From a virus, in IMG/VR virus record IMGVR_UViG_3300021197_001347, positions 1-35,443 of that record: a DNA stretch of 35,443 bases; one strand, 5' to 3'. Below, piece after piece: positions 4,879-14,110 of this stretch. The notes under the pieces were generated by a model, which was not told where the DNA came from, made no database searches, and saw nothing but the letters and a program-made list of their open reading frames with translations. Within the stretch, counting starts at the first letter, position 1; each line of letters starts with the position of its first letter. Position numbers and translations under genes: made by a program.

Positions 4879-5219
4879 AATGAGAATCTAACCCCAAGTT
4901 TGATATCTTCATATTTGAATTTATCGGATGCGCTCACTGCAGTGAACAGATCAAGAGCTGGTGAAAGCCCATAGGTTGCTTCTACTTTTACGCCTGTAAA
5001 GTCCATAGACAAGTCATTTGTAGCAGTTGCTTTTAGTCGAGAAGATAGGCCAATAGCACCTAAAGAGATGTCTGGTCCAACTTCCATTGCCCATGCTGAG
5101 CCTTCTACAGAATACGCAACTTCACCACCAAAGCCAAGCATTGGCATATTGCTGATTACGTCAGCTTGAGCTGCAGTTGCAGATAGCGCCACAGCGGACG
5201 CAAGAATTAAAGATTTCAT
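4875..5219 (-). CDS. Exported outer-membrane beta-barrel-like protein
   Basis: A 114-residue protein with a clear Sec signal peptide (MKSLILASAVALSATAAQA, cleavage expected after residue 19). Alternating hydrophobic/polar strands follow, and it ends in VRFSF; a terminal Phe after alternating residues is typical of outer-membrane barrel proteins. The mature part of about 95 aa could form a small barrel. It lies directly downstream of the tmRNA coding piece with its own AAAAGGA site, so it is probably carried on the same late transcript. A phage-made outer-membrane protein could alter the surface or block superinfection; this is inference. Confidence 0.65.
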   Translation of the reverse strand: MKSLILASAVALSATAAQADVISNMPMLGFGGEVAYSVEGSAWAMEVGPDISLGAIGLSSRLKATATNDLSMDFTGVKVEATYGLSPALDLFTAVSASDKFKYEDIKLGVRFSF

Positions 5220-5244
5220 AAGGTATTTCCTTTTAGTTAAATTT

Positions 5245-5416
5245 AGTGAGCCCGTTCTGTTTCGAGGTGGAACTCATACCCAATAGAATTATGCTGCTAG
5301 AGCATATCCTGAAGGTGCAAAATTATCGTTTGCAATTATAGTTTTTGGCTGAATAACGTAGGCCAACACGGTAAGCTCCAATCTATTTTCACACCTGTCG
5401 ATCCTATTTCGACCCC
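5245..5416 (-). ncRNA. ssrA: Permuted two-piece tmRNA: coding piece
   Basis: The 5' end GGGGTCG (5416-5410) pairs with CGACTCC of the acceptor piece as a 7-bp stem, with a G-U at the third pair, the alanine identity signal. GGATCGACAGG follows, like the conserved D-loop region of tmRNA. GCTTAC (5376-5371) can pair with GTAAGC of the acceptor piece (P2). A TTGGC/GCCAA stem (5366-5345) fits pseudoknot 1. The tag reading frame (5333-5289) encodes ANDNFAPSGYALAA and a TAA stop. Alphaproteobacterial tags begin ANDNFA in the same way. A 7-bp hairpin (5276-5247) probably marks the 3' end, so that boundary is approximate. This piece supplies the resume codon that rescues stalled ribosomes. Confidence 0.9.
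5289..5333 (-). other. tmRNA proteolysis-tag reading frame
   Basis: Fourteen codons plus TAA, starting with the resume codon GCA: ANDNFAPSGYALAA. The YALAA end is the ClpXP-type degron, as in the E. coli tag ANDENYALAA, while ANDNFA matches the Caulobacter tag. It lies just after the PK1-like stem, as in known tmRNAs. Confidence 0.9.
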
Positions 5417-5417
5417 A

Positions 5418-5561
5418 TTATAAAGACACAAATCCAAGAGCATATGCAATGCTCATTTCTAATCCAAGTAATGTTGCGAATCCAATAAGAGTAAGAGATA
5501 TTGCTATCGGTAGATAGGTAACATCTTTCTTTGTTCTTTCTCTTGTGCAACAAGTACTCAT
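5418..5561 (-). CDS. 47-aa membrane protein encoded in the tmRNA intervening segment
   Basis: An ATG (5561-5559) preceded by AAGGA at a spacing of six bases opens a 47-codon frame. It ends with TAA at 5420-5418, one base before the mature 5' end of the tmRNA coding piece. The product has a polar, Cys-Cys-containing start (MSTCCTRERTKKD) and then one long or two short hydrophobic helices (roughly residues 15-47, YLPIAISLTLIGF onward). The intervening segment of the permuted tmRNA holds almost nothing else. Release of the two tmRNA pieces would also cut out this message. No homologue was recognised; the good start site and the exact fit argue that it is real. Confidence 0.6.
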   Translation of the reverse strand: MSTCCTRERTKKDVTYLPIAISLTLIGFATLLGLEMSIAYALGFVSL

Positions 5562-5573
5562 GTTATGTCCTTA

Positions 5574-5636
5574 TGGTGGAGTCGCTGGGTACCGCCCCCA
5601 GGTCCAGTATGTGTCCACGTTTCTTCAACGCTTACG
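5574..5636 (-). ncRNA. ssrA: Permuted two-piece tmRNA: acceptor piece
   Basis: Read on the minus strand it begins with CCGTAAGC, whose GTAAGC pairs with the coding piece. It continues to a T-arm (CTGGG stem, loop GGCGGTA, CCCAG; 5601-5585), then CGACTCC and an encoded ACCA ending at 5574. The stem with the coding piece is 7 bp and includes the G-U pair read by alanyl-tRNA synthetase. The T-loop lacks the usual TTC. The order acceptor, intervening segment, coding is that of alphaproteobacterial permuted ssrA genes. The 5' boundary is estimated from the late promoter and the P2 pairing. Confidence 0.85.
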
Positions 5637-5639
5637 GAA

Positions 5640-5647
5640 TATTTATA
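5640..5647 (-). promoter_or_regulatory. T4-type late promoter for the tmRNA locus
   Basis: An exact TATAAATA on the minus strand. A start six bases downstream falls within a base or two of the predicted 5' end of the acceptor piece. This makes the tmRNA, its internal ORF and the outer-membrane-like gene one late transcript. Confidence 0.7.
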
Positions 5648-5692
5648 TATCCCCCTTTTTCTATATTGATGTTGTTGGAAAGTAATTAATAA

Positions 5693-6551: not shown

Positions 6552-7055
6552 TCATAAGTTCCTCTCCAAAAGATGGTTATAAAGATCATCGACATTACTG
6601 TGTAGTTCGGCAATGTCACGGTTATTATCAATGATGTAGTCTGCCATCCAAGGTTCGAGTGTATTACTAGTTTTATCTTCGGGAGGAAGATGGTCAGAGC
6701 GATCGACCCAGATGACTACATCTACAAGGCCATTATTGCGAATAGACTGAAACTCTCTTTTGTTTCGAAGCCCGCAGTACATATCAGACACACTGAAGAT
6801 CTCTCTACCAATACGTGAGGGATCAGATATACAGTAATCTGATATAAGGTCGTACCATTCTTGACGATGATTTGAACGGTCGGCAAAGCATTCTTCGACA
6901 GATTTGTAACCATACAGATCTTTGATTGCAGGGAACACAACGTTTTCTGCGCAATGCCAAGATGACGATTTATACGTGAAACCATATGAATCACGTAGGT
7001 ATTCTGCCACTGTATCTTTGCCGTGCCGACCATATCCAATTAAAAGTATTTTCAT
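6552..7055 (-). CDS. P-loop nucleotide kinase, deoxynucleotide monophosphate kinase-like
   Basis: A 167-residue protein with an N-terminal Walker A loop GYGRHGKDT (residues 7-15), close to the GVKRSGKDT loop of T4 dNMP kinase (gp1). The rest (a lid with several Arg, then IWVDRSDHLPPEDK near residues 115-130) fits a small NMP kinase fold. It would phosphorylate dNMPs for replication, next to thyX and near dCMP deaminase. T4 gp1 is larger (about 240 aa), so the substrate range is unsure. The ATG lies seven bases after an early -10 box and has no Shine-Dalgarno sequence, suggesting leaderless expression. Confidence 0.65.
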   Translation of the reverse strand: MKILLIGYGRHGKDTVAEYLRDSYGFTYKSSSWHCAENVVFPAIKDLYGYKSVEECFADRSNHRQEWYDLISDYCISDPSRIGREIFSVSDMYCGLRNKREFQSIRNNGLVDVVIWVDRSDHLPPEDKTSNTLEPWMADYIIDNNRDIAELHSNVDDLYNHLLERNL

Positions 7056-12403: not shown

Positions 12404-12915
12404 TTTAATATTTCCCATTCAACACCTGATTCTTCGAAAAGCTGTTTTGTTAGATTCCATGACTTTAACCAGCGGTCTTCGATCTTGCCGTTGATTACTA
12501 CTCTTTTTATTCCTACTTGGATTAGTCCCTTTGCACATTCTGAGCAAACTGGTAAACCATATACGTACATTGTTGCACCATCAAGTGATACACCATTATA
12601 TGTAGCATTAAAGATTGCATTCATTTCTGCGTGTACAATCAACACATATTTTTCGTCTCTATTTCTATATCGCTGAATATGATCTTCTACTCCACGAGGA
12701 AACCCATTATATCCTGTTGATAGTACCTGACCTTTACCGCCAATGGCTACTGCACCAATTTGACTGGAAGGATCTTTCGACCATCCAGCTGCAGCTTTCG
12801 CTAATTCCATATAGCGGTTATCCCACTTGGAGCTGACGGAAGATGGAGTCGTTTGTGGCTCTTTTGGCGGTTCGGGAGGTGTGGATTTCTTGAGTCTTGA
12901 GAGGATGTTTTTCAC
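12400..12915 (-). CDS. cd: dCMP deaminase
   Basis: A 171-residue zinc deaminase converting dCMP to dUMP, the substrate of ThyX. Zinc motifs: HAEMNA (H95, E97 as proton shuttle) and PVCSEC (C124, C127). The dCMP-binding region STGYNGFPRGVEDH is intact. The start is a GTG (12915) with AAGGAG ten bases upstream. This gives a Pro-rich extension of about 28 residues before the usual KWDxRYMELA start of the family, and a 98-base overlap with the asparagine synthase gene. It is coupled to the dehydrogenase paralogue downstream. Confidence 0.9.
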   Translation of the reverse strand: MKNILSRLKKSTPPEPPKEPQTTPSSVSSKWDNRYMELAKAAAGWSKDPSSQIGAVAIGGKGQVLSTGYNGFPRGVEDHIQRYRNRDEKYVLIVHAEMNAIFNATYNGVSLDGATMYVYGLPVCSECAKGLIQVGIKRVVINGKIEDRWLKSWNLTKQLFEESGVEWEILK

Positions 12916-14110
12916 GATCTATGATCTCCTTTGGAACGATGTTACGAAAAGTTTCTTTGAGGCATTTCTTTTCACCGTTGCGTAATATATATGGTGTATT
13001 CAATGCATGCTTTACAATGTAAGGTGCAAGGAATGGTGCACGAAGTTCTATAGTAGATTTCATCATGGTACGATCTAACTTCGGAAGGTGGTAATACGGC
13101 AGTTCGCAGAATGTGTCAGAGTGTTGACTATCGTATTCTGTTGCCCGATTATAACCACCGAATAATTCATCAGCACCATCGCCAGTCAACACTGCATAGA
13201 ATCCTAACTCGCGAAGCTTTCTAGCCATAGCAATTTGTGGTTTAACGGATCCAAGGTCGACTGGCGATTGGTGGATACGGACTGCTTCAAGATCACTGAC
13301 TTCATCAAGAGTGACGTCGACGAGGGAGGAGGAGACTAAGTGTGCGAAGTCTTTCTCATGATTATCTACGTGAATCGCAGTAACAGAGCGACCCAGTTCC
13401 TTTAGCAGTCCGTAGATAATACTGGAATCGAGACCACCTGAAAGAAGTATTGATACTTCTCTCTGACCACCCAGACGCGCGGAGACAGAGCGCTTCATGT
13501 CTAGGTATAGGTCGCCATAATCAACTTTGTCCCAATTCCAGTATTTGTGCACCTGGCCTTTATGTATATAGCAGCCAGGTGGTAATTGTTTGATCTCGTT
13601 GTACGGTGTACGTGGATCTGGGGAATAGCCCCATTTCATAGTGTTCGACATAAATGTCTCATCGATTGACACTGGACCAAATCGCTTCAGTACATCGATC
13701 TCTGATGCCATAGCTTCCATGTCAGTTCGGTAGTAAAGCGGTTTGATACTAAGGTGATCTGTCATACCAAACAAATGGTTATCAAGCATTGTAACATATG
13801 TCCAGAAGCCATCAAAGTCATGGAAGCAATCTGTACCATGGCTGTGGAATGAATTGTGTACATACTCTACGTCAGAGGCATAGTCTGTATCGTAATTGAA
13901 TACTTCACCAACGAATAATCCTGGAACACCATACGTGTTCGGCTGAATAGCAAAGAGCGGATCAAGATTAACGAATGGCAAAGCAGTGTGTGCAAATGTG
14001 AATCCGTTATACTCGCGATGCCCAATATATTCTGGTAGACCACGATATTTAATAGCCTGAATAACAGACTGTGGATTTTGATCAGTAGGGTAGGCTACAA
14101 ATCCACACAT
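12818..14110 (-). CDS. Glutamine-dependent asparagine synthase-like amidotransferase
   Basis: A 430-residue protein with an N-terminal class II glutaminase domain (MCGF, nucleophile C2) and a C-terminal PP-loop synthetase domain (SGGLDSS, 224-230; TGDGADELFGGYNRA, about 311-325). It is shorter than E. coli AsnB (554 aa) but both active sites are present. Related proteins amidate sugars or peptides in surface polysaccharide clusters, so Asn synthesis is not certain. The cytidylyltransferase and nucleotide-sugar genes nearby make a sugar-linked role plausible. It follows the 33-aa ORF closely, and its end overlaps dCMP deaminase. Confidence 0.85.
   Translation of the reverse strand: MCGFVAYPTDQNPQSVIQAIKYRGLPEYIGHREYNGFTFAHTALPFVNLDPLFAIQPNTYGVPGLFVGEVFNYDTDYASDVEYVHNSFHSHGTDCFHDFDGFWTYVTMLDNHLFGMTDHLSIKPLYYRTDMEAMASEIDVLKRFGPVSIDETFMSNTMKWGYSPDPRTPYNEIKQLPPGCYIHKGQVHKYWNWDKVDYGDLYLDMKRSVSARLGGQREVSILLSGGLDSSIIYGLLKELGRSVTAIHVDNHEKDFAHLVSSSLVDVTLDEVSDLEAVRIHQSPVDLGSVKPQIAMARKLRELGFYAVLTGDGADELFGGYNRATEYDSQHSDTFCELPYYHLPKLDRTMMKSTIELRAPFLAPYIVKHALNTPYILRNGEKKCLKETFRNIVPKEIIDREKHPLKTQEIHTSRTAKRATNDSIFRQLQVG

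Follow-up and report, generated by a model that had tools for sequence, protein, structure and literature searches.

The locus described here raises the question of what is carried in the spacer of a phage-encoded two-piece tmRNA, the segment that lies between its two pieces. The window, by which we mean the whole 35,443-nucleotide stretch analysed, is a virus contig (IMG/VR record IMGVR_UViG_3300021197_001347) from a marine virus of bacteria. It is a fragment of a T4-like phage, with genes for a family B DNA polymerase, UvsX, a DnaB-like helicase, SbcC/SbcD and other replication functions, and its polymerase is closest to that of Phage C48C1 (Kyanoviridae, 50% identity), with cyanophages next at about 46%. 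Two-piece tmRNAs in phages are already known, and what is new is the protein gene in the spacer. We put at about 0.8 the probability that the locus is a two-in-one unit, in which a two-piece tmRNA is combined with a real spacer gene for a 47-residue, probably membrane-inserted protein.

Two other genes of the window deserve mention. An asparagine-synthase-like protein with a glutamine amidotransferase domain (PF00733, PF13537) is encoded at 12818–14110 on the minus strand, for which PHROGs gives only a weak QueC-like match, and a short deoxynucleotide monophosphate kinase-like protein is encoded at 6552–7055 (minus), adjoining the TauD-like gene. The latter matches only the C-terminal part of its family and is possibly truncated.

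A complete two-piece tmRNA of the alphaproteobacterial type

A preliminary description of this DNA had recognised a complete permuted alpha-type tmRNA on the minus strand, and this identity is supported by both of the covariance models that it named as a check, each of which matches above its curated cut-off: RF04321 (tmRNA_permuted) at 5635–5289 (118.2 bits, cut-off 47, E 1.1e-22) and RF01849 (alpha_tmRNA) at 5685–5245 (116.1 bits, cut-off 50, E 3.1e-31). An independent call by ARAGORN places a permuted tmRNA at 5198–5667 (minus), with the same tag as had been read before, ANDNFAPSGYALAA followed by a stop, in a frame that ends in a ClpXP-type degron. The pairings proposed earlier are both readable in the sequence, the acceptor stem being formed by seven of seven pairs (GGGGTCG/CGACTCC) with a G-U third pair, and P2 by GTAAGC/GCTTAC; the boundaries of the two pieces and the spacer likewise agree with Rfam, ARAGORN and the sequence (Table 1).

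Table 1. Features of the tmRNA locus and its nested gene, in window coordinates.
Feature	Position	Strand	Basis
T4-late-type promoter box TATAAATA, some 4 nt ahead of the acceptor piece	5640..5647	-	Motif; candidate promoter
tmRNA acceptor piece, from the 5' strand of P2 to the encoded CCA	5574..5636	-	RF04321, RF01849, ARAGORN, sequence
Intervening segment (spacer), 157 nt, not part of the mature two-piece RNA; holds the putative nested gene	5417..5573	-	Bounded by CCA and coding-piece G1
5' strand TAAGGACAT of the predicted spacer-end stem, with the Shine-Dalgarno sequence in it	5565..5573	-	Phage covariation; folding
AAGGA, putative Shine-Dalgarno sequence for the nested gene, within the spacer-end stem	5568..5572	-	Sequence; folding
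Putative nested 47-codon gene MSTCCTRERTKKDVTYLPIAISLTLIGFATLLGLEMSIAYALGFVSL plus stop TAA (5420–5418)	5418..5561	-	Homologues, pN/pS, model
Predicted spacer-end stem, 3' strand GTGTCTTTA, codons Val-Ser-Leu before the stop	5421..5429	-	Phage covariation; folding
tmRNA coding piece, starts GGGGTCG at 5416	5245..5416	-	RF01849 match ends at 5245
Tag reading frame ANDNFAPSGYALAA plus stop	5289..5333	-	ARAGORN coding part 335–379 of gene; Rfam alignment

The tag had also been offered as a pointer to the host lineage. It does indicate the alphaproteobacterial lineage of the tmRNA but no single host, being of the usual phage form (ANDNFAP..YALAA) that is common to many phage contigs; the Methylophilales phage Melnitz has an alpha-type tmRNA, yet infects an OM43 methylophile (PMC9004378). 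Judged from the sequence, it is plausible that the phage tmRNA serves to recycle ribosomes or to tag proteins for ClpXP, as was suggested.

A putative gene in the spacer

The intervening segment had been taken as inert, a view that does not hold, as the spacer appears to be protein-coding. Its 157 nt are almost filled by a 47-codon open reading frame with its own Shine-Dalgarno sequence, in the layout CCA-TAAGGACATAAC-ATG...TTA-TAA-T-GGGG, such that the Shine-Dalgarno sequence begins two bases past the CCA and the stop codon ends one base short of the coding piece. The TGAT ahead of the coding piece is conserved in non-coding spacers also, and the stop therefore seems to owe its position in part to the tmRNA leader, not to selection on the gene.

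A homologue search with an alignment of the window protein and its homologue in locus L180 as query finds relatives in 18 phage contigs. The gene lies again inside a tmRNA spacer in L180 and in L286/L287, so that three distinct nested copies are known in this family. It is free-standing in L288–L301 (for example, after ribonucleotide reductase in L288, and in L294 with a large repetitive protein on one side and a subtilisin-like protease on the other), and L302 is cut at the contig end. Comparison of the window copy with seven relatives gives a pN/pS of 0.26–0.33, with the nucleotide differences mostly at third positions. We regard the nested gene as very probably real on these comparisons.

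The window protein is modelled as a single long helix (residues 3–42, mean pLDDT 83.6), largely hydrophobic and preceded by a basic N-terminus that contains a Cys-Cys pair, which is consistent with a small inner-membrane protein. There is no match to it in Pfam at an E-value of 0.1 or in PHROGs, where a free-standing homologue receives a match at chance level only (E 0.017); by profile matching, then, it is assigned to no known phage small-protein family, such as a holin or an inhibitor. No annotated isolate was found that carries either this protein or a member of nested family F1, described below. One could only guess at a part in host takeover, in the timing of lysis or in the exclusion of other phages.

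Nested genes recur across phage tmRNA spacers

A scan of viral contigs keyed to the conserved coding-piece start, and thus blind to spacer content, yielded 91 distinct parsed spacers. A supported nested gene is present in 25 of these, or 25 of the 46 that are at least 95 nt long; the loci were fetched by exact patterns and such frequencies describe the fetched sample. A second scan used a Shine-Dalgarno sequence directly after the CCA as its pattern (CCA + NAAGGA), which occurs in at least 120 viral contigs as against four places in all genome contigs. The one site is used by several unrelated families, with proteins of 27–120 amino acids, most of them without recognised families: F1 is a one-helix-type protein of 38–44 residues, F2 a cysteine-containing protein of 62 residues, F3 the family of the window, and F4 a protein of 35 residues whose frame ends inside the coding piece; there are others.

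Median dN/dS values over the nested families are 0.03–0.20, and the families with more than two members have medians of 0.14 (28 sequences), 0.20 (8) and 0.087 (6), every informative pair being below 1. We also compared the spacers with dinucleotide shuffles of their interiors in which both spacer ends were kept. Spacers with a Shine-Dalgarno sequence have spanning open reading frames far in excess of the shuffles (4/4 versus 0.20, 4/4 versus 0.03, 7/8 versus 0.37, and 9/9 versus 0.00), whereas 95–140-nt spacers that lack one have them at the level of chance (2/18 versus 1.17). The test undercounts F1, because this family uses two overlapping frames. On these comparisons the spacer is a coding site that appears to recur with unrelated small proteins in many phages.

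Some of the individual spacers are unusual. In F1 loci (L024, L090 and others; spacer positions of about 13 and 41) a short acidic open reading frame follows the first Shine-Dalgarno sequence and the conserved helix protein starts inside it, and the two frames are possibly translationally coupled. The nested frames of F4 (L062, L133, L141, L182, L198 and L009) and of L286 extend 13 nt into the mature coding piece, where the shared bases ATG GGG GCG AAA TAG encode MGAK and a stop, and form the protein end and the acceptor stem in one. The 499-nt spacer of L011 holds two open reading frames of 34 and 120 codons and has no matching spacer-end stem; the longer has a free-standing homologue in L286 (5728–6156, 44% identity). 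Spacers L193 and L140 have the AAGGA stem described below with no open reading frame, and are perhaps decayed or ancestral states. Rhodobacter phage RcXuper (L303) and Roseobacter phage DSS3P8 (L305) have permuted tmRNA loci that are neither annotated in their records nor called by ARAGORN; the long spacers of both are hairpins with no obvious gene. ARAGORN also misses the tmRNA of L286, whose tag as read from the sequence, ANDNFAPSDYALAA, is closely similar to that of the window.

Bacterial spacers provide a comparison. A permuted tmRNA scores above cut-off in 263 of 289 alphaproteobacterial genomes, and the spacers are 10–48 nt long in the 33 loci parsed, which comprise top-scoring loci and the four genomes with CCA + NAAGGA; the spacers at those four places are 26–48 nt long and contain no gene. 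The longest bacterial spacers fetched, of 60–165 nt (for example L267, 165 nt), have no open reading frame led by a Shine-Dalgarno sequence. No nested gene was seen among about 50 bacterial spacers examined, these loci having been chosen by score or span rather than at random, with L266, L278, L283 and L241 unparsed (L266 was inspected as sequence only). The CCA + NAAGGA motif is similarly present in 0 of 50 bacterial loci versus 17 of 120 viral loci. We therefore reject the nested gene as a feature of bacterial tmRNAs, since their spacers are short and the longest of those fetched lack it.

The spacer ends form a stem

A stem of about 9 bp joins the two ends of the phage spacers, its 5' strand being the first nine or ten bases and its 3' strand bases 5 to 14 counted from the spacer end. 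Among spacers of the Shine-Dalgarno class (67 distinct spacers with 33 distinct end pairs) 8.70 of nine positions are paired, versus 7.41 ± 0.14 when the arms are permuted (maximum 7.88), and position 7 of the stem occurs in all four Watson-Crick orientations (G-C, C-G, U-A and A-U). Non-coding spacers have the same stem (7.98 versus 6.32 with arms permuted). Where the spacer is coding, AAGGA lies in the 5' strand and the last codons of the nested gene in the 3' strand, and the covariation shows a stem that would capture the Shine-Dalgarno sequence by pairing it with the end of the very gene that it serves. The Shine-Dalgarno sequence is thus paired within a conserved and covarying stem, a property by which a regulatory hairpin may be judged.

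Folding predictions agree with this arrangement. The predicted pairing probability of the Shine-Dalgarno sequence is 0.95–1.0 in all ten spacers folded, and that of the window is about 1.0 in the predicted precursor and 0.96–1.0 in the predicted excised spacer. The predicted fold of the window precursor has the spacer stem and the acceptor stem stacked on each other across the CCA.

The termini of the window-family proteins offer a clue to how the arrangement arose. Nested copies end in VSL or VSF and free-standing copies in GFI, suggesting that the stem supplies the last codons, and the difference fits insertion of the gene between pre-existing stem arms. Capture by the stem does not seem to be obligatory, because L286 encodes the same protein with its Shine-Dalgarno sequence outside the stem.

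A candidate promoter before the acceptor piece

The box NATAAATA is present in 110 of 135 phage tmRNA loci (background 3.3% per 100 nt) and mostly precedes the CCA end by 74–76 nt; that of the window starts 74 nt before this end. Since the spacing between TATAAATA and the acceptor piece is constant in most of these loci, the window among them, the probable start of transcription is at or beside the mature 5' end. No -35 box TTGAC is visible in the window copy. Most of the phage loci with TATAAATA (about 110) have TTGAC upstream, and the combination with a T4-late-type box raises the question of a hybrid early/late promoter; the promoter in Melnitz is called early by its authors (PMC9004378).

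A possible shut-off step, and other readings

The position of the stem permits a simple, if tentative, model of a co-transcriptional shut-off. Because the 3' strand of the stem is made only after the whole gene, ribosomes could load on the nested gene during transcription, while that strand is still missing, and a translating ribosome would keep both the spacer stem and the acceptor stem open. Once the ribosomes had run off, the stem would close and hide the Shine-Dalgarno sequence, ending translation and presenting the substrate for processing, and RNase P and 3' trimming would then release both tmRNA pieces. One short late-phase transcript would in this way give a pulse of the small protein and then a ribosome-rescue RNA. 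Against such a step, the stem is also present in non-coding spacers, and it may serve only in tmRNA processing, with the Shine-Dalgarno sequence placed there to save space.

This objection leads to a reading for which we judge the support to be about equal, and which likewise falls a little short of an even chance: the nested gene is real, the stem is a tmRNA-processing element, and the spacer is a safe, well-transcribed landing site for small mobile genes that are not regulated. Several observations favour it, including the equal conservation of the stem in gene-less spacers, the occupation of the same site by unrelated proteins, the occurrence of window-family proteins elsewhere in ordinary genes of their own, next to ribonucleotide reductase or tail/protease genes, and the location of the Shine-Dalgarno sequence outside the stem in both L286 and Melnitz. 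It accounts less well for the finding that 67 of 116 distinct long phage spacers have the Shine-Dalgarno sequence inside the stem despite a loop of more than 100 nt, a count that is inflated by the CCA-Shine-Dalgarno search pattern. The reality of the nested gene is independent of both the shut-off step and the unregulated landing site.

It is also conceivable, but improbable, that the phage tmRNA is a rescue RNA of the ordinary sort and the excised spacer a free mini-mRNA translated only after processing; the stop is at its very 3' end, so that its ribosomes would become clients of the same tmRNA, as a built-in feedback. Trans-translation is favoured by short mRNA tails after the stop, and in the window, L180 and most nested families the predicted excised RNA has its Shine-Dalgarno sequence beginning 2 nt from the 5' end and its stop ending 1 nt from the 3' end. 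However, the predicted fold still holds the Shine-Dalgarno sequence of the excised spacer in the stem, and the frames of F4 and L286, which run 13 nt into the coding piece, could be finished only on the uncut precursor. The remaining alternative, that the spacer frame is a chance opening in a non-coding stem-loop, can draw on the AT-rich composition, the shortness of the frame, a stop that comes from the conserved TGAT leader, and the non-coding spacers of many phages, among them Roseobacter and Rhodobacter phage isolates. We reject it as highly improbable given the shuffle tests and the codon-level conservation, since protein-level conservation is seen in several unrelated families and the window protein has free-standing homologues.

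Relation to known systems

The window tmRNA shares with the alphaproteobacterial permuted tmRNAs (RF01849/RF04321) the encoded CCA, the G-U third pair, P2, an ANDN..ALAA tag and the permuted order, but differs from them in its long and apparently protein-coding spacer. Among about 18,000 phage genomes the Melnitz paper reports 53 unique two-piece tmRNAs, of which 50 are from phages of marine or aquatic samples (PMC9004378), and a 2025 tmRNA database, with 79 sequences from phages, takes the spacer to be the segment missing from the mature RNA (PMC11915505). Melnitz itself (L123, MZ577097.1; 2573–2773, 2885–3007), a T4-like marine phage, is the closest parallel, with a two-piece alpha-type tmRNA and a spacer open reading frame after a GGAG Shine-Dalgarno sequence, although the nested protein is a different one and its Shine-Dalgarno sequence is in the loop rather than in the stem. 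That frame (MFKWLSKTRLVVITRDYFRERNRKADAKIPKYLSGTRSVY...) has a KIPKYLSGxR motif in common with the L011 spacer frame, and immediately upstream of the Melnitz tmRNA is a gene of family F2 whose stop codon falls within the TTGACA box. We found no description of the spacer frame in the passages of PMC9004378 consulted, and the locus is annotated as SsrA only.

The sole extra gene mentioned in such a spacer is a tRNA-Ala in a nominally archaeal genome (PMC11915505); it too is a second gene inside the intervening sequence of a permuted tmRNA, but it is an intact RNA gene, single and not recurrent, in a possibly misbinned genome. Homing-endonuclease genes in tmRNA group I introns (PMC11915505) are likewise protein genes in a segment removed at maturation, but there the segment is a self-splicing intron whose mobility the protein serves, whereas the phage spacers contain no intron. 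No mention of protein genes in a tmRNA spacer was found in the literature searched, with most subscription papers, older tmRNA surveys included, lying outside it.

Implications

The spacers of split tmRNAs have so far been treated as waste. That phage split-tmRNA genes are a general platform for small proteins, with a translate-first, mature-later switch, seems to us rather unlikely; in that reading a single stem would both render the tmRNA precursor processable and silence the nested gene, and every transcript would give a timed pulse of a host-directed membrane protein and then a ribosome-rescue RNA. For experiments, a cultured phage of this kind is at hand in Melnitz. If phages do use the spacers as coding space, there would be a set of small phage proteins that annotation pipelines have missed, since RNA genes tend to be passed over by gene callers, and cargo may be part of the reason that phages keep tmRNAs. 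The arrangement would also be a compact natural case in which one RNA segment is both a messenger and a processing element.
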